64,000 nt of DNA. Source: Acidobacteriota bacterium (lineage in GTDB: Bacteria; Acidobacteriota; Terriglobia; Versatilivoradales; Versatilivoraceae). Both the position numbers and the translations under genes were made by a program. Shown here piece by piece: positions 53,383-63,630 of the stretch (positions are counted from its first letter, which is position 1; every line of letters begins with the position of its first letter). The notes under the pieces were generated by a model that worked only from the letters and a program-made list of their open reading frames with translations, was not told where the DNA came from and did no database searches. Where the stretch lies: assembly GCA_022826755.1 (NCBI GenBank), contig JAJDUG010000059.1:1-64000 (forward strand). The letters are read 5' to 3'.

Positions 53383-53964
53383 TCAAGGGCCGGAAGGGTC
53401 CAAGTCCACCTGGGCGTAGGGACGGGCGCCAAGGGAATTCAGTTCCAGGGCCAAGCCGGCCGTCATGAGATAGACCCTGTCCGCGCGGGAGGCCGCCAAC
53501 TGATTCACTCGTCCCAGGGCGTCCCGGTAGGCGCGGCCCAGGGATGAAGAGGGAACGATGCCCTGGCCGACCTCGTTGCTGACCAGGATCCAGGTTGCAG
53601 GGGACTCTGCGATGAGATCCATCAGTTCGCGGGCGGAATCCGGGATCCGGCTGCCGTCTTCGGCGCGGGCGGGCTGGTCGAGCAGCAGGTTGCTGGCCCA
53701 AAGGGTGAGGCAGTCCAGCAGAAAGGTGTCGTAGCGGTCCAGGACGGGACGAAGCGCCGCCGCCAGGTCCAGGGGCTCCTCCAGCGTGTCCCAGCCTGGC
53801 GGGCGCCGCTCGCGATGGGCGGCGATGCGGCGTTTCATGTCTTCGTCTCGCGCCTCCGCCGTGGCCACGAACAGCACCCGCCGGCCCCGGCGAGCCACTC
53901 TCTGGGCAAAGGAACTCTTGCCGGAACGCGCGCCACCAAGGATCAGAATGAGTTCCTTTTTCAC
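53383..53964 (-). CDS. cobU: Bifunctional adenosylcobinamide kinase / adenosylcobinamide-phosphate guanylyltransferase
   Basis: 193 residues from a GTG that overlaps the cobQ stop. ILILGGARSGKSSFAQ is the P-loop and FVATAEARDEDMKRRIAAHR contains the histidine region that is guanylylated. DTFLLDCLTLWASNLL and ILVSNEVGQGIVP complete the CobU/CobP signature. It activates adenosylcobinamide to the GDP form, the substrate of CobS encoded in the same operon. Last gene of the B12 operon. Confidence 0.95.
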   Translation of the reverse strand: MKKELILILGGARSGKSSFAQRVARRGRRVLFVATAEARDEDMKRRIAAHRERRPPGWDTLEEPLDLAAALRPVLDRYDTFLLDCLTLWASNLLLDQPARAEDGSRIPDSARELMDLIAESPATWILVSNEVGQGIVPSSSLGRAYRDALGRVNQLAASRADRVYLMTAGLALELNSLGARPYAQVDLDPSGP

Positions 53965-55475
53965 GGCTTCAACCCCGCTATCGTGTGAACGGCATCCATG
54001 TCCAGATGCCGGCTGACCAGGTCGGCCAGCCTGTCGTACTCCCTCTCCATGTTCTGCAGCGCCCCGGCGGGAAGCGAGATGTTTTTTCTGGCAGCCAGGT
54101 GCAGCAGCAGGCCGCGGCGAAAGCCGTGGTTGTGGAACAGGCCGTGGAGGTAGGTTCCCAGGGTCAGTCCCTGCGAATCCAGCGCGCCCTCGGGGGCGTC
54201 GGCGGGTTTGCCGGAGCGTTCCCGAATTCGGAAGGGTGCATTTCCGGCGTTGGAGGAACGCCCCATGTGGATTTCGTAGCCGGCGAGTCGGCCGCCCCGG
54301 CTGCCGGTCAACAGTCCGCTTCCGGAGACGATGTCGGCCCTCACCTGGTGGGTCTCCTTGCCGGACTCGAAGACCGTCTTGACGGGAAGCAGGCCCAAGC
54401 CGTCCGTTTCAGGACGGTCCGATTCCACCCTCTGGGGGTCGAGGATACGTTGCCCCAGCATCTGGTAGCCGCCGCAGAGGCCGATGACCGGTCTTCCGGT
54501 CCCTCGGTGGTCCGACACGGATCGGTCCAGGTCCGCCTGACGCATCCACTCGAGGTCGGCGACCGTGGTCTTGGATCCCGGAATGACCACCAGGTCGGGA
54601 GACCCCATTCGACCGGGACTGTCCACGTATCGAAGGCGCACGCCGGGCTCGCGGCGAAGGGGGTCGAAGTCGTCGAAGTTGGCGATGCGGGGCAGCCGGA
54701 TGACGGCGATGTCCAGGGGCGCCTCCGGATCCGGACGGGGTTGTGGAGAATTTTCCAACCCCACCGAGTCCTCTTCGGGGAGCTGGACGTCCTTGAAATA
54801 GGGCAGGACGCCGGCAATGGGAACCCCGGTGCGCTGCTTCAGGCTTGCCAGTCCCGAGTCCAGCAGCGAGGGGTCTCCTCTGAACTTGTTGACGACAAGG
54901 GCCTGGATCAAGGCCCGTTCCTCCGGTTCCAGCAGCGCCACCGTTCCGAACAGGGAAGCGAAGACGCCGCCCCGGTCGATGTCGCCCACCAGGATAACCG
55001 GAGCCTCGGCGTAACGGGCCACCCGCATGTTGACGATTTCCTGTTCCCTCAGGTTGATCTCGGCGGGACTGCCGGCGCCTTCAATGACCACGATGTCATT
55101 GCCCTCCCGCAGGGTGTCGAGCGATCGAGTGACCAGCGGCCACAGTTGCGGTGTCATCTCCCAATATTCTCTGGCGGATACCACGGAAACGGGCTTCCCC
55201 ATGGCTACCACCTGGGAGCGAAGTCCGTCCTGGGGCTTCAGCAGGACCGGGTTCATCTCGACCAGGGGTGCCACCCCGGCGGCCTCGGCCTGAACCGCCT
55301 GCGCGCGGCTGAACTCACAGCCGTCCGGGGTCACGAAGGAGTTGAGGGACATGTTCTGCGCCTTGAAGGGCGCCACCCGTAGACCTTCCCTGGAGAAAAT
55401 GCGGCACAGGGCCATGACCAGCAGGGACTTGCCCGCATGAGAGCCGGTGCCCTGGACCATCAGGACCTTGCCCAT
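53961..55475 (-). CDS. cobQ: Cobyric acid synthase (glutamine-hydrolysing)
   Basis: 504 residues from ATG 55475; upstream frame extension is not supported. The N-terminal dethiobiotin-synthetase-like domain begins MGKVLMVQGTGSHAGKS and includes APFKAQNMSLNSFVT. The C-terminal glutaminase domain has DLVVIPGSKTTVADLEW and the nucleophile cysteine in VIGLCGGYQMLG (about 330). It amidates four side chains of adenosylcobyrinic acid a,c-diamide. Its presence suggests that at least the late corrin steps occur, not only cobinamide salvage. It overlaps cobU by four bases. Confidence 0.95.
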   Translation of the reverse strand: MGKVLMVQGTGSHAGKSLLVMALCRIFSREGLRVAPFKAQNMSLNSFVTPDGCEFSRAQAVQAEAAGVAPLVEMNPVLLKPQDGLRSQVVAMGKPVSVVSAREYWEMTPQLWPLVTRSLDTLREGNDIVVIEGAGSPAEINLREQEIVNMRVARYAEAPVILVGDIDRGGVFASLFGTVALLEPEERALIQALVVNKFRGDPSLLDSGLASLKQRTGVPIAGVLPYFKDVQLPEEDSVGLENSPQPRPDPEAPLDIAVIRLPRIANFDDFDPLRREPGVRLRYVDSPGRMGSPDLVVIPGSKTTVADLEWMRQADLDRSVSDHRGTGRPVIGLCGGYQMLGQRILDPQRVESDRPETDGLGLLPVKTVFESGKETHQVRADIVSGSGLLTGSRGGRLAGYEIHMGRSSNAGNAPFRIRERSGKPADAPEGALDSQGLTLGTYLHGLFHNHGFRRGLLLHLAARKNISLPAGALQNMEREYDRLADLVSRHLDMDAVHTIAGLKP

Positions 55476-55542
55476 AGGGCGCTCACTTCCTGGGGGGGAG
55501 GATTCGGGCCAGGGTGTCGAGTCCGGCCTCTCCACGTTCCTG

Positions 55543-56178
55543 TCACTCTCCGAGGCCCTCTTCCAAGTGGCTGGTGTCGTTGAGCAGGTCCATGACGGCA
55601 CTGCCTTCCTCGAAGAGACTGACCACGGAGAGGCCGGCATTGGCGAAGCGGAACTTCCACATCTTTTGAGCCGGCAGACCCAGAAGACGGGTAATCAGGG
55701 CCCGCAGCATGCCGCCGTGGGTAACCACCAGGAGGTTGCGGCCACTGTCGGTGCAGGTCTCCCGCAGCCGGTCGACAACGGTATCGGCCCGGGAGCAGAG
55801 CTGAAGATCGCTCTCGCCGCCGGGCGGCGCGAAGGAAGGGTCTGCAGCCGCCAGCCAGTGGCGATACAGGTCCGGATAGCGGGCCTGCACTTCGTGGAAA
55901 GTCAGTCCCTCCCAGGCTCCGAAATTCTTCTCCCGCAGTTCCGGCATCTCTTTCAGCCGGACGTCGTTCCTTCCCAGCAGGATCCCCGCCGCCGTTTCCG
56001 AGCAGCGACGCAGATCGCTGCAACGAACCTCCGCGAAGGGGACCGACGCCAGGCGCTTGCCGAGCCGTCGGGCCTGCCGCTGTCCGGTCGGGTTCAGGGA
56101 CGGGTCCGACTGTCCCTGGATTCGACGCTGGGCGTTCCACTCCGTTGTTCCGTGTCTGACCAGAAGGTATCTATTCAT
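55543..56178 (-). CDS. cobC: Alpha-ribazole phosphatase-like histidine phosphatase
   Basis: 211 residues from ATG 56178. LVRHGTTEWNAQRRIQG holds the catalytic RHG (R8, H9), followed by CSDLRRCSETA, LREKNFGAWEGLT and VVTHGGMLRAL with the second histidine. Sequence alone would allow any phosphoglycerate-mutase-fold phosphatase, but the position between cobS and cobQ supports removal of phosphate from alpha-ribazole phosphate or adenosylcobalamin 5'-phosphate. It starts seven bases after the cobS stop. Confidence 0.88.
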   Translation of the reverse strand: MNRYLLVRHGTTEWNAQRRIQGQSDPSLNPTGQRQARRLGKRLASVPFAEVRCSDLRRCSETAAGILLGRNDVRLKEMPELREKNFGAWEGLTFHEVQARYPDLYRHWLAAADPSFAPPGGESDLQLCSRADTVVDRLRETCTDSGRNLLVVTHGGMLRALITRLLGLPAQKMWKFRFANAGLSVVSLFEEGSAVMDLLNDTSHLEEGLGE

Positions 56179-56185
56179 GTCCCTG

Positions 56186-57004
56186 TCAATCCAGGTAACC
56201 TGCCAGCGGTGAGTGCAAGGCAAGGGGCGAGGCGGCGGTCAGGACCACAGCCACGACCAGGACCGATGCCTCGGCGGTCTCGTTGACGGCTCCGTAGATG
56301 TCTCCCGTCAGGCCGCCCAGCGCCCGCGACGCCCAGTATCCGATAGCCCAGGAGACGGCGCTGGCCAACGCCAAAAGTAGCAATCCGGTGACTCCGGCCA
56401 GCCCGATGGAAGCGGCCAGGGCAAGGCAGAGACCGCCGATGAGAGGCCGGCGGCCCCGGTTCCCGAAGAACGCCGTTCCCAGACCCTCCCGCCTGGTATA
56501 GGGAAACAGCTCCATGGCCAGCAGCATCCCCCAGCGAGCAAGGCAGGGAAAGAGCAGCAGGACCGAATGCCGGCTGGCTTGGGGCAGGGCGGCGAGGGCG
56601 GTGACCTTGAGGAGAAGCAGACTGGTCAGTCCCACCACCGCGAAGGCTCCTACATGGGGGTCCCGGAGTATCTCGAGCCGCCGCCGGCGTTCATAGCCGC
56701 CCAACAGCGCGTCGCAGGTGTCCATGAAGCCGTCCAGATGCAGGGCTCGAGTCAGCAGGGCAAGACCGGCAATCAGCAGGGCGCCGGCCAGAAGAGGCGG
56801 AAACTGGCGGTCAAGCGGCGTAGAGTCCGAAGAGAGAAGCGAATATGACCACTGCAGCAGCAAGTCCGTCCCCGCCAGCAACGATCCAAGCAGCAGACCC
56901 ACCAGCGGGAACCAGGCGCGAGCCGCAGGGAAATCCTCGGCCGCGTTGCTTGGCCCCAGGGGGAGAATCGTCAGAAAGGCAATGGCGGAACGCAGGTCCT
57001 TCAT
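56186..57004 (-). CDS. cobS: Adenosylcobinamide-GDP ribazoletransferase
   Basis: 272 residues from ATG 57004, overlapping the cobT stop by four bases. AIAFLTILPLG at the start, WFPLVGLLLGSLLAG, HLDGFMDTCDALLGG (the DGxxDxxD-type metal site) and several membrane spans identify CobS. It joins alpha-ribazole phosphate with adenosylcobinamide-GDP at the inner membrane, the last step of nucleotide-loop assembly. Confidence 0.95.
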   Translation of the reverse strand: MKDLRSAIAFLTILPLGPSNAAEDFPAARAWFPLVGLLLGSLLAGTDLLLQWSYSLLSSDSTPLDRQFPPLLAGALLIAGLALLTRALHLDGFMDTCDALLGGYERRRRLEILRDPHVGAFAVVGLTSLLLLKVTALAALPQASRHSVLLLFPCLARWGMLLAMELFPYTRREGLGTAFFGNRGRRPLIGGLCLALAASIGLAGVTGLLLLALASAVSWAIGYWASRALGGLTGDIYGAVNETAEASVLVVAVVLTAASPLALHSPLAGYLD

Positions 57005-58095
57005 GGGGATGGGCTCTCCGCGGGCGCCTCGTTCCTGTCGCGGTCCGACACTCCCGCCTCGTCGAAGGTGGCCATCTCGCAAAGGCAGGTCGAGGCCGCC
57101 TCTATGATGGGCATGGCCAGCAGGGCGCCGCTGCCCTCGCCCAGACGCATCCCCAGATCCAGCAGAGGTGAAAGCCCCAGGCAGGTCAGGATCGCTTGGT
57201 GTCCCTGCTCATCCGAGCGGTGGGAGGCAATCATGTAGTCTTGGGTGGCGGGGCAGAGCCGGTGGGCCAAGAGCGCCGCCGCTCCCGAGATGAAGCCGTC
57301 CAGAACCACGGCGCGCCGCATCGCCGACCCGCCCAATATAACACCGGCCAGCACGCCGATCTCGAATCCTCCCACTTTGGCGAGCACGTCCAGGGGATTG
57401 CCGGGGTCGGGCCGGTTGATCGCCAGTGCCCTATGCACTACTTCCACCTTGCGTTCCAACTCCTCGGGCGTGCGTCCCGTGCCCTTGCCGGTGGTTTCCC
57501 GGGGGGATTTGCCCGTGACGGTGGCCGCAATGGCGCTGGCGGCGGTGGTGTTGCCGATGCCCATGTCTCCCACGGCGATCAGGTCCGCGCCGGAGCGAGC
57601 GGCCTCGACCGCAAGATTCACCCCTGCCGTGAGACACCTTTCCGCCTGCCGGGAGGACATGGCGGGTCCCTGAGTAATGTCTTTCGTGCCGTGTCCGGCA
57701 CTCAGGCAGCGGAGATCGGGATGATTCCGGATTCCGCTTGCCACTCCCGCGTCCACGATGATCCGTCGAACGCCCAGCAGCCTTGAAAGGGCGCTGACCG
57801 CCGCACCCCCCGCCAGAAAGTTTTGCACCATCTGCCCGGTGACCGCCTGGGGATAGCCTGTCACCCCCTGGGCGACCACGCCGTGGTCGGCCGCTGCAAC
57901 GACGACCGCCTTCCCCTGGATCCGCGGCTTCTCGGTGCCGAAGATCCCGGCCAGTTGAACCGATACCTGCTCCAGCCGGCCCAGGCTGCCGGGGGGCTTG
58001 GTGAGACGGAGCTGCCGGGCCTCGGCGCGGCGCCGGGCCCCGGCGTCCACGGGACCGATCCGGCGGATGGCTTGTTCGAGCGTGATCGGTTCCAT
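57001..58095 (-). CDS. cobT: Nicotinate-nucleotide:dimethylbenzimidazole phosphoribosyltransferase
   Basis: 364 residues from ATG 58095. LTKPPGSLGRLEQ, VVAAADHGVVAQGVTGYP, GDMGIGNTTAASAIAA and FEIGVLAGVILGGSA are diagnostic. It makes alpha-ribazole phosphate from the lower-ligand base. Length matches the family. It follows the receptor gene by 59 bases, so it is the first biosynthetic gene of the riboswitch-controlled operon. Confidence 0.96.
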   Translation of the reverse strand: MEPITLEQAIRRIGPVDAGARRRAEARQLRLTKPPGSLGRLEQVSVQLAGIFGTEKPRIQGKAVVVAAADHGVVAQGVTGYPQAVTGQMVQNFLAGGAAVSALSRLLGVRRIIVDAGVASGIRNHPDLRCLSAGHGTKDITQGPAMSSRQAERCLTAGVNLAVEAARSGADLIAVGDMGIGNTTAASAIAATVTGKSPRETTGKGTGRTPEELERKVEVVHRALAINRPDPGNPLDVLAKVGGFEIGVLAGVILGGSAMRRAVVLDGFISGAAALLAHRLCPATQDYMIASHRSDEQGHQAILTCLGLSPLLDLGMRLGEGSGALLAMPIIEAASTCLCEMATFDEAGVSDRDRNEAPAESPSP

Positions 58096-58154
58096 TCGGG
58101 ATTGGTGGAGCCCTGGAACTCTTCGACAATGCCAGGCCCGGTCAGAGACTCGGG

Positions 58155-60587
58155 TCAAAAGGAAAACTCCAACCCGGCTGTCCCGGTGGCCCCGGGGTTC
58201 AGAAACCCGTTCTCATAGTATTGCCTGTCCAGCAGGTTGTCGACCCGGCCGAACAACCGGAGACTGCGGAATTCCGAAAGACGCAACCTGTAGCTGGCCC
58301 CCAGGTCGACCTTGGTGACGGGGTCGAACCGAAACACGCGGCTGCCGAAGATGCTGGGGTCATAGATCGGTGCCAGGGTGCTGCCGGAGGTCACCCAGTC
58401 CAGGTTGAGGAACAGGTTCCGCCCCAACCACTGGGTTGCCAGCAGGGACCACTGGTGGTCGGGAATCACAAAGGACTTCAGTACCTCGCCAACCCGAGGC
58501 ACGCGCTCGTCGGCGTTGGTGTAAGTGTAGGAGAATCGCAGATCCAGCGATCTGGAAGGACGTACGGTGGTGGTGACTTCAAGGCCACGGGCCAGTCCTC
58601 CCTGGCTGTTCCGGTAGCCGCCGAAACGCCCGAAGGGGTCGGTGGCGGGGTTGATGCCGCCGGAGAAGTCGAAGACGATGTTTTCCTGGATACGGGTGTA
58701 GAACCAGGTCAGAGAGATTTGCGCCCGGTTGCCGAGCAGGGCCTGGTCCAGGCCGGCGTCAAAGGCGATGGATCGATCGGGACGGAGCCTCGGGTCTCCA
58801 TAAGCCGAGTAGCCGAAGCTGGAGAAGTAGGTCCCGAAGCGTTCATAGAGAGAGGGAGACCGATAGCCGTTTCCGACATGGGCGCGGATCTTGGTCCCGG
58901 TTTCGGCCACGAAATAGGCGATCGAACCGTCGCCGGTGTAGGCGGTCGGTGGAGCATCGAAGGTGAATCCCTGGTAGGGCGCAGTTTCCAACGGCTCCAG
59001 CAGAGGAGTCTGAAGCGAGAACATCTGGACTCTGAAGGCGGCTGAAAGGTGCAGCCGTCCCTGCAACAGTCTGAGCTGGTCCTGAATATGAAAGGCGTTG
59101 GTACGCTGAGTGACGTCCGCCAGGGACTCGGGGGAAGGCTGCACGGGAATATTCCGATTGATGAGCCGTTCATTCTCGAACTCATATCCCGCATCGATGA
59201 AGTGGTTGTTTCCCACTTGCAGATGGGTGCGGGCGTTGACGGTCTGCACGCGCCCGCCGAAATCCGACCGCGTGATCCCCAGGGGCTGAAAGCCCGGTCC
59301 TCCGGGGCCGTTGTGATTGATCCGATCGGTTCGCAGATTCTGATAGGAGAGGCTGTATCCCGTCCGGGCTGTCGGCTGTTGGTTGAACAGGACCGCGCTG
59401 GAAAGGAAATCGGTGGCTACGCGTGCGTCGGGATCATTGAGAGTAGAGATGAATGTGGCCGATCCCAGGTTCAGTTGGGACAGGGGCGTCCCCGCCTGGT
59501 GGAGCTCCACCAGGTCGGGAGCCAGGGGACGGGCCTGGACGATTCCGGTGGCCGTCAAGCCGGGGGCGCTGCTTGGCGACCGGTTGAGCTGGAGGAAGGT
59601 GTCGCCCCCGTAGAGTCGTGCCGAGAGGTTGGCCGTGGGAGAAAGGTTCAGATTCAGCCGCCCCTGGGCGGTGGTGTTGCGGCTGGCGTCGTCGCCATCG
59701 ACGCCTCTGGATATGTTTCGATGGGCCAGTCCCGTGCTGTAGGTGAACCGGTCCTGCCGGAATCCTCCCGCCAGGCGGGCCCGGCCATGCAGCCGGCCCA
59801 GGGATCCCCCCTCGGTCAGCAGGCTTCCCCGGGTGCGGCCGCCGCCTTCGGCGCTCATCATGTTGACCACGCCGCCGATGGCGTGACTTCCGTAAAGGGA
59901 CGAGCCCGACCCCCGCAACACCTCCACCCGGTGGGTATCGGCCAGCAGGAGATGGGATACGAAGGAGGTGGCGTCTCCCTGGGGCGCGGCCGCGTCCCGG
60001 AAGCGCAGGCCGTCGATCAGGATCGAGGTGTTCTCGCCCCGCAGGCCGCGGGTTCGAATGGTCGTCTGGGCGCCGGGCGTCCCCAGTTGCTGAATGCGCA
60101 AGCCGGGAACGGGCCTCAAGGCCTCGGCCAGGCTGATCTCGCCCCGCTCTTGCATGTCCGTGCTGTTGATGACCGTCAGGGCCTTCGAAACCTCGTCGAC
60201 CGACTGGGGTCTCCCAGCGGCCGTGACCACGACCTCCTCCCGGCGCACCGCCAATAGAAGGGCAATGTCCCGCACCAGTTCCTGACCGGCCTCGACTTGA
60301 AGTCCGCTCAGGGACACGGGAGCAAATCCCCGGGACTCGACTTCCAGGATATATTCCCCCGGACGTAGCGGCCCAAAGCTGAAACCTCCCGAGGCATCGG
60401 TAGTGACTCTCAGGCGCAGGCCGCTGGACCGGTCGTGGAGCGTGACGAGGGCGTCAGGCACCAGGGATTGCTGGGGATCGGTGATGGTTCCGCTGATCGA
60501 GGCCGGCTCGACGGCCTCGGCGGTCAGGGCGGCACAGCAGACCACGAGGCACAAGGGCAACGTAAACTTTCCGGTAATTAACTGCAT
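58155..60587 (-). CDS. btuB: TonB-dependent outer-membrane cobalamin receptor (BtuB-like)
   Basis: 810 residues. A signal peptide (1-25) is followed by a carboxypeptidase-regulatory-like domain (about 28-110, ISGTITDPQQSLVPDALVTL), a TonB box (EEVVVTAAG) and plug (about 130-240, LRPVPGLRIQQLG, TRGLRGENTSILIDG, EVLRGSGSSLYGSHAIGGV), then the beta-barrel ending in an aromatic residue (LEFSF). Two cobalamin riboswitches upstream and the cob genes downstream make vitamin B12 or cobinamide the probable substrate. The N-terminal extension is common in Bacteroidetes and acidobacterial receptors rather than in enteric BtuB. Confidence 0.88.
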   Translation of the reverse strand: MQLITGKFTLPLCLVVCCAALTAEAVEPASISGTITDPQQSLVPDALVTLHDRSSGLRLRVTTDASGGFSFGPLRPGEYILEVESRGFAPVSLSGLQVEAGQELVRDIALLLAVRREEVVVTAAGRPQSVDEVSKALTVINSTDMQERGEISLAEALRPVPGLRIQQLGTPGAQTTIRTRGLRGENTSILIDGLRFRDAAAPQGDATSFVSHLLLADTHRVEVLRGSGSSLYGSHAIGGVVNMMSAEGGGRTRGSLLTEGGSLGRLHGRARLAGGFRQDRFTYSTGLAHRNISRGVDGDDASRNTTAQGRLNLNLSPTANLSARLYGGDTFLQLNRSPSSAPGLTATGIVQARPLAPDLVELHQAGTPLSQLNLGSATFISTLNDPDARVATDFLSSAVLFNQQPTARTGYSLSYQNLRTDRINHNGPGGPGFQPLGITRSDFGGRVQTVNARTHLQVGNNHFIDAGYEFENERLINRNIPVQPSPESLADVTQRTNAFHIQDQLRLLQGRLHLSAAFRVQMFSLQTPLLEPLETAPYQGFTFDAPPTAYTGDGSIAYFVAETGTKIRAHVGNGYRSPSLYERFGTYFSSFGYSAYGDPRLRPDRSIAFDAGLDQALLGNRAQISLTWFYTRIQENIVFDFSGGINPATDPFGRFGGYRNSQGGLARGLEVTTTVRPSRSLDLRFSYTYTNADERVPRVGEVLKSFVIPDHQWSLLATQWLGRNLFLNLDWVTSGSTLAPIYDPSIFGSRVFRFDPVTKVDLGASYRLRLSEFRSLRLFGRVDNLLDRQYYENGFLNPGATGTAGLEFSF

Positions 60588-60638
60588 CCGGCAGATCCTT
60601 TCTCCTCCCCCAAGGAGGTGTTCGGGAAGCTTCCCTGA

Positions 60639-60800
60639 GCCGGTCTCCTGACTTGCGGCCGGAAGGGGCCTACTCTCCGTGCCTTCCCACCTTTCGGCAG
60701 TGGCCTTCAGACGGATTTCGTTGCCGCTTACAGTTGCTGGGGCAGTGGCGGAATCTCACCGCACTTCCCGTATTGCTCGGGGCGCATCCAGTGGATGATT
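60639..60800 (-). ncRNA. Cobalamin riboswitch, proximal copy
   Basis: On the minus strand: GGGAAGTGCGGTGAGATTCC, then GCCACTGCCCCAGCAACTGT, later GGCCACTGCCGAAAGGTGGG, AAGGCACGG and the B12 box AAGTCAGGAGACCGGC (60639-60656). All core blocks are in order. Between it and btuB are GGGAAGCTTCCC (60624-60635) and a CCTCC/GGAGG hairpin (60604-60618) that could hide or free the ribosome-binding site AAAGGA. It lies about 160 bases downstream of a second riboswitch in the same direction. Confidence 0.92.
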
Positions 60801-60959
60801 GTCATTGACCTGAGTAGCCGAGCGCGGATCTCAGGCCTTCATCGGTTGGCAAGCCTGCAGTTGAAATGCGGATGGGAAACAACCAGGATGGACGGTGCGG
60901 AAAATCTGCGTGCATGTTCGACCCAGCCGCTCTCGTGCGCAGCGTGCCTCGTCAATCCC

Positions 60960-61120
60960 AAGGCAGGTCTCCTGACTGACAGCTGGGACGCCCGACCGGC
61001 TGCCTTCCCATTGCCTGAAGCAACAGTGGCCTGCTTCGCCGGCGAACTCGCTGATCACAGTGGCGCGACCGTGCGGGAATTGCACCCGCTTCCCTTTTGG
61101 CTCGGACTCGAGCACCTTGG
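60960..61120 (-). ncRNA. Cobalamin riboswitch, distal copy of a tandem pair
   Basis: On the minus strand: AAAAGGGAAGCGGGTGCAAT, TCCCGCACGGTCGCGCCACT, GGCCACTGTTGCTTC, ATGGGAAGGCAGCC and GTCAGTCAGGAGACCTGCC. It is a complete aptamer by eye and is more similar to the plus-strand copy at 61462 than to the proximal copy. No gene fits between it and the proximal riboswitch (60801-60959), so the two probably lie in one leader. Confidence 0.92.
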
Positions 61121-61133
61121 GACCAATGGCGAA

Positions 61134-61163
61134 ATCGTAGCAACGCCCCGAAAGAAGCGTCAA
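61134..61163 (-). promoter_or_regulatory. Predicted sigma-70 promoter for the btuB-cob operon
   Basis: On the minus strand TTGACG (61163-61158) and TACGAT (61139-61134) are separated by 18 bases. The -10 box ends about 14 bases before the distal riboswitch, so transcription would begin at the aptamer. No comparable promoter is seen between the two riboswitches. Confidence 0.55.
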
Positions 61164-61203: not shown

Positions 61204-61262
61204 GTGAAAAGAGTTATCCACGAAGGGACACGAAGGATCACGAAGACACACGAAGCGAGACG
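61204..61262 (-). repeat. Dispersed repeat, CTTCGTGGATAACTC family, copy B5
   Basis: AAAGAGTTATCCACGAAGGG, CACGAAGGATCACGAAGACA and CACGAAGCGAGACG. Its reverse complement matches the far end of 33585-33735 (GTGTCTTCGTG, GGATAACTCTT). It lies directly upstream of the leftward B12 promoter. Confidence 0.75.
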
Positions 61263-61290
61263 ACAAGGGGAATCGGAACCATTCCGTGCT

Positions 61291-61420: not shown

Positions 61421-61450
61421 TTGACCCAGGGACTTCTCTTTTGCTAGCAT
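61421..61450 (+). promoter_or_regulatory. Predicted sigma-70 promoter for the btuFDC-like operon
   Basis: TTGACC at 61421 and TAGCAT at 61445 are separated by 18 bases. The riboswitch begins about ten bases downstream, at the expected transcription start. Confidence 0.6.
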
Positions 61451-61461
61451 CTGCCGCGGTG

Positions 61462-61635
61462 AGTGCCAGGTGCTCGCGGCAGTTTTGCGAGTGAAAAGGG
61501 AAGCGGGTGCAAATCCCGCACGGTCGCGCCACTGTAAGCAGCGAGTGTTTCAGCACTGCGATTGGCCACTGTTGTTTTCAATAAACGGGAAGGCCGTCTG
61601 AAACACCGTGACCTGTGAGTCAGGAGACCTGCCTG
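61462..61635 (+). ncRNA. Cobalamin riboswitch upstream of the ABC importer
   Basis: In order: AAAAGGGAAGCGGGTGCAAA, TCCCGCACGGTCGCGCCACT, GTAAGCAGCGAG, GGCCACTG, CGGGAAGGC and the B12 box GAGTCAGGAGACCTGCC (61617-61633). The core is complete. The coding start is about 170 bases downstream; the intervening stretch contains no obvious terminator, and the control mode (transcription or translation) is unclear. Confidence 0.94.
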
Positions 61636-61805
61636 GGACCGCGCGCCACTGGTGTGTCGCTTCGCATGAGAGCGAGGGTGCCGCTCCTCCTTCCCCGCCT
61701 TTTCTCACCGGATTCCAGTCTTGTTTTCGAGTGCCGTTTCCCCGTTTATCCGCGCGAGGGAGCCCTCTGCGGGAATCGGGACCGTTTTGGACGTTGGGAC
61801 AAGGG

Positions 61806-62831
61806 ATGAGTCAAGCTTCCGAGGCCGGCATGGAGGAGGCGTTCCCGGGTGGCCGCGGCTTCAAGAGCGAACCACCGTCGGTCCTCTTGCCGGGCACCTG
61901 GCTGCGCTGCCTGATCGGACTGATCCTGGTTCTGGTGGCAGTCACATTTCTGTGGTCCTGCCAGCAACCGGGGTCCGGTCCCTCTCGGAGTTCATCCGAC
62001 TCTGAAGAACGTAGCGTTGAGCCGGGCAATCCCAGGCGCATCATCTCTCTGTCCCCCAACACCACCGACATTTTGGAGGGGGTGGGCGCTTTCGATCGGG
62101 TGGTGGCCGTTTCCGACTACTGCTTCTACCCCCCGAGCGTGGCCTCTCTGCCTCGAGTGGGTGGCTGGCAGAACGCCAGCCTGGAGGAGGTGGCCAGCCT
62201 CGCACCCGACCTGGTGGTCATGGCCGAGGTTCAGGCTCCCTTCGCCGACAGCCACCTTCAGGCCCTGGGAATCGAGACCCTGGTGGTGCCGAGTCAGTCT
62301 CTGCAGGATGTCTTCACGGCCATCGACGCCGTGGGACGGAGTGTGGGCCGACAGAAAGCGGCCCAGCGCCTCCAGAACGAGGTTCGTGCCGTTCTGGACA
62401 GCGTCGCAGGCCGCACCCGGGATTTGCCCAAACCCTCGGTTCTCTGCGTGGTGGACCGGGTGCCCGGAACCCTGCGCGGTCTCTATGCGGCCACTCAGGG
62501 AAGCTACCTGTCCCGGTTGATCGAGATTGCCGGCGGGAGGCCCATAGCCCCGCCCGCCACCTTCAATTACGGCAGGATCGGAAAGGAGGCCGTGGTCACC
62601 CTCAACCCCGACGTGGTGATCGACATGGTGCAGGGAGCCCAGGGGGCCTTTGCCGAGGAACCCGTCGCAATCTGGTCGGAACTGAAGCAGATCCGGGCCG
62701 TTCGCCGCGGCCGAGTCCATCCCGTCCGTGCAATGTTTGTCCTTCATGCTTCCCAGTTCGTGGCGCAGACGGCCGAACTCTTCTCCAGGCTGATTCATCC
62801 GGAGGTTTTTGGGACTGACGATGTCCGCTGA
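61806..62831 (+). CDS. btuF: Periplasmic cobalamin-binding protein of an ABC importer (BtuF-like)
   Basis: 341 residues from ATG 61806; the frame is open into the riboswitch but that is not coding. A basic N-terminus and hydrophobic segment (about 33-52, LIGLILVLVAVTFLWSC) form a signal anchor or lipoprotein signal. RIISLSPNTTDILEGVGAFD, VVAVSDYCFYPP, LAPDLVVMAEVQ and LNPDVVIDM are class-III periplasmic-binding-protein landmarks. The B12 riboswitch upstream points to a corrinoid ligand; siderophore or heme proteins share the fold. The ATPase gene overlaps its end. Confidence 0.82.
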   Translation: MSQASEAGMEEAFPGGRGFKSEPPSVLLPGTWLRCLIGLILVLVAVTFLWSCQQPGSGPSRSSSDSEERSVEPGNPRRIISLSPNTTDILEGVGAFDRVVAVSDYCFYPPSVASLPRVGGWQNASLEEVASLAPDLVVMAEVQAPFADSHLQALGIETLVVPSQSLQDVFTAIDAVGRSVGRQKAAQRLQNEVRAVLDSVAGRTRDLPKPSVLCVVDRVPGTLRGLYAATQGSYLSRLIEIAGGRPIAPPATFNYGRIGKEAVVTLNPDVVIDMVQGAQGAFAEEPVAIWSELKQIRAVRRGRVHPVRAMFVLHASQFVAQTAELFSRLIHPEVFGTDDVR

Positions 62832-63630
62832 TGCCCTCATGCCCGCTGGCGCCGATGCCCTCATCGAAGCCCGTGGCCTCCGCTTTGCCTACGAGGCCGA
62901 TCGGTGGGTGGTCGATGGCGTCTCTCTCGAGCTCAAGCACGGTGCCCTGGCCGCCCTCATCGGCGCCAACGGTTCCGGCAAGTCCACCCTCATCCGCTTA
63001 TTGGCCGGTCTTCGTTCCGCAAACGCCGGAGAAGTTCTTTTTTCGGGGCAACCCCTGAAGGGCATTCCGCGGAAGCGGCTGGCCCGGTCCCTGGCCTACG
63101 TTCCCCAGATCAATCCCATGATTTTTCCCTTCACGGCCATGGAAGTGGTGTTGACCGGGAGGACTCCCTACACGCCACGCTTCCGCTTCGAGAACCGTCT
63201 CGACGTGGAGCAGGCCCTGAAGGCCCTGGCCATGGTAGGGGCTGCTCATCTGGCCCCTCGTCCGGTGACGGAGTTGTCGGGAGGAGAAAGGCAACTGGTA
63301 GCCGTGGCCAGGGCCCTCGCCCAGGAGCCGGAGTGCTTGATCCTGGACGAGCCCGCGGCCGCCCTGGACCTGAAGCACCGGGCAGCTCTCATCCGCATCC
63401 TGAGGCAGCTTCGGGACCGGCAGGGCATGACGGCGCTGATGGTGACTCACGACCTGCAGTTGCTGGATCCTGCCTTCGACCGGGTCTTTGCCATCCACCG
63501 GGGATTGCTGCTGGCCGAGGGATCCCCCGGGCAGGTTCTGAGGGACGAGGTGCTTTCACGGGTCTACGAGGACCCCCAGGTCCGGGCCCGGAAGTTGGAG
63601 GGGCGCACCTTCGTCTGGTCCGGCACCTGA
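62821..63630 (+). CDS. btuD: ABC transporter ATP-binding protein for B12 (BtuD/FepC family)
   Basis: 269 residues from ATG 62821, overlapping the previous stop by 11 bases. Walker A is GANGSGKSTL; the signature is ELSGGERQLVAVARALAQ; Walker B is CLILDEPAAALDL; the H-loop histidine is in MVTHDLQLL. AYVPQINPMIFPFTAMEVVL is the Q-loop region typical of the iron-siderophore/B12 class. It powers the importer formed with the flanking binding protein and permease. Confidence 0.88.
   Translation: MSADALMPAGADALIEARGLRFAYEADRWVVDGVSLELKHGALAALIGANGSGKSTLIRLLAGLRSANAGEVLFSGQPLKGIPRKRLARSLAYVPQINPMIFPFTAMEVVLTGRTPYTPRFRFENRLDVEQALKALAMVGAAHLAPRPVTELSGGERQLVAVARALAQEPECLILDEPAAALDLKHRAALIRILRQLRDRQGMTALMVTHDLQLLDPAFDRVFAIHRGLLLAEGSPGQVLRDEVLSRVYEDPQVRARKLEGRTFVWSGT

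Follow-up and report, generated by a model that had tools for sequence, protein, structure and literature searches.

Tandem cobalamin riboswitches of separate lineages in the leader of an Acidobacteriota btuB-cob operon

Why would the leader of one operon carry two cobalamin riboswitches in a row, and how did the two come to lie side by side? The locus that raises this question lies in a 64,000-nucleotide stretch of DNA from an Acidobacteriota bacterium (the window), in which the earlier note had described two complete aptamers in the same orientation, about 160 bases apart, behind a single candidate promoter. Scoring both copies with the Rfam cobalamin model RF00174 (gathering score 31.5), a check that the note had called for, bears this description out. 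The promoter-side aptamer, D1 (61134-60945, minus strand), scores 102.4 bits (E 1.7e-24) and the gene-side aptamer, D2 (60795-60621, minus strand), 87.5 bits (E 3.2e-20); each clears the gathering score by a wide margin. Each match spans model positions 1-189, even though one side branch of D2 is shortened. The measured gap is 149 nt, somewhat less than had been estimated. A candidate sigma-70-type promoter, recognized by consensus match (TTGACG, 18 nt, extended -10 TGC-TACGAT; 61134-61163, minus strand), adjoins D1, with 22 of 29 columns invariant in seven genomes, and places the predicted transcription start at about 61127, immediately upstream of D1 P1. On the minus strand of the linker between the aptamers, a consensus scan gave no sigma-70-type promoter-like match, and a search for an intrinsic terminator found none; the terminator scan's matches lie on the other strand or within aptamer hairpins. 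Neither a sigma-70-type promoter-like site nor a conserved small gene between the aptamers, matching two of the findings named beforehand as counting against the tandem, turned up in the linker. D1 and D2 are two aptamers on one strand with no conserved open reading frame in between, as tandem riboswitches are defined, and we regard the pair as a new and well-supported case of an arrangement that is rare but already known.

The genes behind the pair, all on the minus strand, follow the order btuB-cobTSCQU, as the earlier note had read it. Profile matches and context identify a btuB-like TonB-dependent receptor with an N-terminal carboxypeptidase-regulatory-like domain (58155-60587); it scores below the cut-off of TIGR01779, the curated vitamin B12 receptor, and owes its btuB name to context. 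It is followed by cobT (57001-58158; TIGR03160, 431 bits), cobS (56186-57082; PF02654 and TIGR00317), a cobC-like histidine phosphatase (55543-56223; PF00300, with TIGR03162 just under cut-off), cobQ (53961-55640; NF001989, 630 bits) and cobU (53383-53964; PF02283, 196 bits), the final operon gene in the window. A third aptamer, T (61451-61649, plus strand; RF00174, 105.4 bits), which the earlier note had not listed, heads a divergent operon encoding a btuF-like periplasmic binding protein (61807-62831; PF01497), an ABC ATPase (62809-63630; PF00005) and a FecCD/BtuC-type permease (63659 onwards; PF01032), all on the plus strand. Mirroring the arrangement at D1, T is adjoined by its own candidate promoter (TTGACC, 18 nt, TAGCAT; 61421-61450, plus strand; consensus match); the consensus fold of the T leader showed no covariation. 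D1, D2 and T are the only cobalamin aptamers that RF00174 finds in the whole genome, and all three lie within about 1 kb. The stretch separating the divergent promoters contains, at 61219-61263, a short array of the 10-nt unit CACGAAGGGA, and units resembling it (ATTCGTGTCC on the other strand) appear again at 2669 and 33602.

D1, D2 and T are present in all seven genomes of the genus, that is, the window and six others, among them 'Candidatus Versatilivorator vitaminiformans' and a single-contig 5.1-Mb Terriglobia MAG. Recurrence of the pair in six other genomes, including this 5.1-Mb contig, excludes an assembly duplicate or artefact. A fourth, divergent cobalamin aptamer lies on a separate contig of one genus member (L011, G005:C337, 974-1199). 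We aligned the seven leaders and compared their mean pairwise identity with that of btuB four-fold sites from five genomes. D1 reaches 95.2%, D2 93.6% and the D2 platform 96.2%, and a 45-nt block 3' of D1 (60911-60955, minus strand) is identical throughout, with 45 of 45 columns invariant. The remainder of the linker falls to 78.4%, close to the 79.8% of the four-fold sites, of which 59% are invariant. The linker thus evolves near the neutral rate, whereas D1, its platform and D2 are under selection, and the computation supports the view that purifying selection keeps both aptamers.

Upon placing 39 cobalamin aptamers in a tree, we observed that D1 and D2 fall into different groups. D1 joins riboswitches found ahead of cobU or btuB in sister genera (RS1), and D2 joins riboswitches that directly precede btuB (RS2), with paired branch supports of 99/95 and 97/81, respectively; T falls in the same broad lineage as RS1. 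A local duplication of one aptamer, which would make D1 and D2 a single clade, is rejected (AU test, p 1.8e-5). The sister genomes G009 and G010 carry RS1-cobU-RS2-btuB on one contig, and G011 carries cobU-RS2-btuB and RS1-cobU on separate contigs. In the window's genus, cobU is a single-copy gene, and five of the seven genomes (G000, G001, G003, G004 and G005) have it on the btuB contig, downstream of btuB. D1 and D2 belong to different riboswitch lineages, probably made adjacent when cobU left the space between them. The opposite polarity, in which cobU was inserted between the switches in sister genera, may also be considered. Departure is the simpler reading because the RS1 lineages with an intervening cobU fall outside the group of D1 and G008, a placement taken from the 39-aptamer tree and weaker in the AU-test analysis. 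In G008 itself, a D1-type riboswitch (L023, 2194-2385) stands directly before btuB in a 313-nt leader, and neither a D2-type aptamer nor cobU was found in the genome. A further pair, in G010, consists of two cobalamin riboswitches that resemble each other closely and are separated by about 1.5 kb (L018, G010:C201, 999-2890); it looks like a recent duplication, unlike D1 and D2.

The platform of D2 suggests how this aptamer may act. Immediately behind it, a P13/RBS hairpin (CCUC-CUUGGGG-GAGG; 60604-60618, minus strand), supported by its fold and by covariation with RS2 of the sister genera, holds a GGAGG that is predicted to be paired in all seven genomes (probability of being unpaired, 0.02-0.08). 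Its loop L13, CU-U-GGGG, complements the L5 loop CCCCAG. The two loops have changed together: CCCCAG pairs with CU-n-GGGG in the genus and CCCUCG with CG-n-AGGG in the sister genera, which amounts to two compensatory changes, and other families combine L5 CCCCG with L13 CG-A-GGG. The fit between own L5 and own L13 beats all of 20,000 permutations; as the loops were set manually and the sequences share ancestry, this counts as support and not as proof. A less strict and unbiased L5 search, run over 80 nt, gave no significant result (p 0.28). We discarded the GGUGCAA loop as kissing partner, since by the L5 consensus in PMC10653944 it is the wrong loop and L5 is the next hairpin. Kissing-loop control of an RBS hairpin is the usual design of cobalamin switches (PMC10653944), and the anatomy points to D2 acting on translation in this manner. 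A second Shine-Dalgarno-like sequence, AAGGA (60596-60600, minus strand), which precedes the btuB start codon by 8 nt and is the better spaced of the two, stays partly open in the predicted hairpin. Upstream of D2, the linker forms a hairpin of its own (GCCUGAG...CUCAGGU; 60808-60836, minus strand) in which two pairs have changed on both sides within the genus. Its arms (CCUGAG and CUCAGG) repeat the strands of D2 P1 (CCCUGAG in most members, and CUCAGGG), and the hairpin could compete with D2 P1.

D1 is built differently. The invariant 45-nt block behind it carries a P13 candidate (CGCU-GCGCACGAG-AGCG; 60928-60944, minus strand), proposed from the sequence and the kissing test, whose loop can pair as CGC-nn-GA with the L5 sequence UCGCG across a 2-nt bulge. 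Because this L5 is invariant, the pairing comes without covariation and is weaker than that of D2; T and RS1 share the hairpin with CGC-nn-GA. In the RNAalifold consensus, a hairpin (UGCCUUG/CGAGGCA; 60945-60965, minus strand) takes up the 3' strand of D1 P1 and may serve as an anti-P1 element. The same consensus also contains an 18-bp anti-P13 helix formed by the P13 region and the linker. Pairing holds in 98.4% of its cells, compared with 42-59% in slid controls, and conservation is only marginally higher on its linker side (p 0.06); its stability (z -1.1 to +1.3) does not exceed that obtained with shuffled linkers, and no double-sided changes occur across the genus. The variable part of the linker (60837-60910, minus strand) is C-rich and G-poor; it may serve as a Rho-utilisation stretch and as the partner in anti-P13 pairing. 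Its excess of C over G amounts to 13-21 per 70 nt, is similar behind T and RS1, and lies within the upper range of the window background. The genome encodes Rho (719 bits). D1 thus likely acts on transcription, and Rho is suggested as the best candidate for its output.

Taken together, we favor, at slightly better than even confidence, a serial model in which one promoter feeds two separate riboswitches, D1 transcriptional and perhaps Rho-dependent, D2 translational, the pair having arisen by relocation of cobU. The two intact aptamers, the purifying selection on both, their separate ancestry and the gene order are supported by computation; the ligand, the OFF sense and the levels at which D2 and D1 act are inferred, with Rho the least certain element. 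In the model, a single promoter would give rise to a btuB-cobT-cobS-cobC-cobQ-cobU mRNA carrying D1 and then D2, and plentiful adenosylcobalamin or a related corrinoid would let both turn the operon off. Ligand binding to D2 would favor the L5-L13 kissing contact and steady the hairpin over the GGAGG before btuB. D1, no longer in possession of its own gene, would lower transcription through the linker: with ligand, P13 would form and leave the C-rich, G-poor stretch open for Rho, and without ligand, the 3' strand of P13 would pair with that stretch. The cobU gene, located between both riboswitches in sister genera, would have ended up at the operon end. The earlier note had offered transcription at one aptamer and translation at the other as an example of two-stage control; the anatomy fits such a split, with an RBS hairpin at D2 and no gene at D1, and the output of D1 is the less certain half, with no intrinsic terminator behind it and suggestive evidence for Rho. 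The most specific version, a bi-mechanism adenosylcobalamin (AdoCbl) pair in which D1 stops transcription via Rho within the 150-nt non-coding linker, D2 blocks translation and a departing gene made the arrangement, we put forward tentatively.

Other readings of the locus have to account for the same features. Both switches could act at one level, be it ribosome access or polarity after blocked translation, and so steepen the response as a pseudo-cooperative pair. This is how the survey literature files AdoCbl doublets (PMC9481103), no terminator follows D1, and the conserved linker hairpin just before D2 could connect both domains. We nevertheless consider it rather unlikely, since D1 has an invariant platform of its own with a P13 candidate, stands a linker of about 150 nt away from D2 and has no gene RBS to cover. 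D1 could instead control a short upstream frame whose translation governs termination or btuB expression, for which the B12 riboswitch leaders of M. tuberculosis provide a precedent (PMC11260477). Open frames of 28-63 codons do occur in all seven genomes, with candidate starts at a UUG 7 nt behind the AGGAG of the B12 box and at an AUG at 60915. Their stop positions and lengths shift, they show no codon periodicity, and dN/dS behind P13 is 0.87 in the UUG frame and 1.15 in the AUG frame. A conserved small gene in the linker is rejected on these grounds, in agreement with the earlier note's claim of no gene between, and control through such a frame appears improbable.

It is also conceivable that D1 does nothing at all. 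The same lineage precedes cobU in sister genera and no gene lies directly behind D1 in the window's genus, so that D1 might be a functionless leftover of a former cobU riboswitch. Its platform, with 45 of 45 columns invariant in seven genomes against 59% of btuB four-fold sites in five, contradicts this; conservation of D1 and its platform far above neutral sites leads us to reject a relict as very improbable. An equally slim chance attaches to D1 and D2 residing on different transcripts through a promoter in between: the linker has no sigma-70-type promoter-like match and evolves at about the neutral rate.

How does the serial pair compare with known systems? Tandem AdoCbl riboswitches were noted by Sudarsan et al. 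2006, as cited in PMC9481103; that survey counts 26 AdoCbl doublets, classed as pseudo-cooperative, and in an early survey AdoCbl UTRs with multiple aptamers made up less than 1% (PMC2258182). D1 and D2 resemble these in having two RF00174 aptamers in one leader, a geneless gap and a platform for each. By contrast, their lineages and platforms differ, D2 looks translational, and their origin appears traceable to the departure of cobU. Bi-mechanism tandem pairs have been described for SAM-II/SAM-V (PMC9481103), likewise serial switches for one ligand with a suggested order of transcription first and translation second. Unlike those, D1 and D2 belong to one riboswitch family, no intrinsic terminator follows D1, and its transcriptional action is inferred. 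The E. coli btuB riboswitch also has a kissing-loop-controlled RBS hairpin before btuB and triggers Rho-dependent termination as a second output (PMC11162775), for which Rho is here a candidate; it differs in its single aptamer and in a Rho site inside the coding sequence. The M. tuberculosis metE/ppe2 B12 riboswitches with uORFs (PMC11260477) share the long leader and short open frames near the riboswitch, whereas the frames between D1 and D2 show no protein-level conservation. Within the literature that we searched, neither Versatilivorator nor tandem B12 riboswitches of Acidobacteriota were treated in any paper.

In a wider survey of 61 Terriglobia-class relatives and 59 genomes picked for several cobalamin hits, same-strand aptamer pairs within 350 nt also occur in G022 and G065 (one genus), G039 and G050. 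In the G022, G039 and G050 pairs the gene-side member falls among btuB-type riboswitches and the distal one elsewhere, the distal placements being on long branches. By these sequence-based assignments, similar pairs, with another type first and the btuB type second, appear to occur in other Terriglobia families. Two contigs of G183 (C317, 11885-12410; C570, 1834-2275) each carry a divergent pair of cobalamin aptamers, the members of a pair lying 60-145 nt apart. AdoCbl doublets as such are already known; D1 and D2 add a well-supported member with an unusual, traceable origin. Both parts of a one-ligand tandem can be followed through seven genomes that carry the pair and through sister genera in which the gene still separates the two switches, and D1 and D2 show that tandem riboswitches can arise by a route other than duplication. 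The locus is also a clean system for asking whether a riboswitch without its own gene works through Rho.
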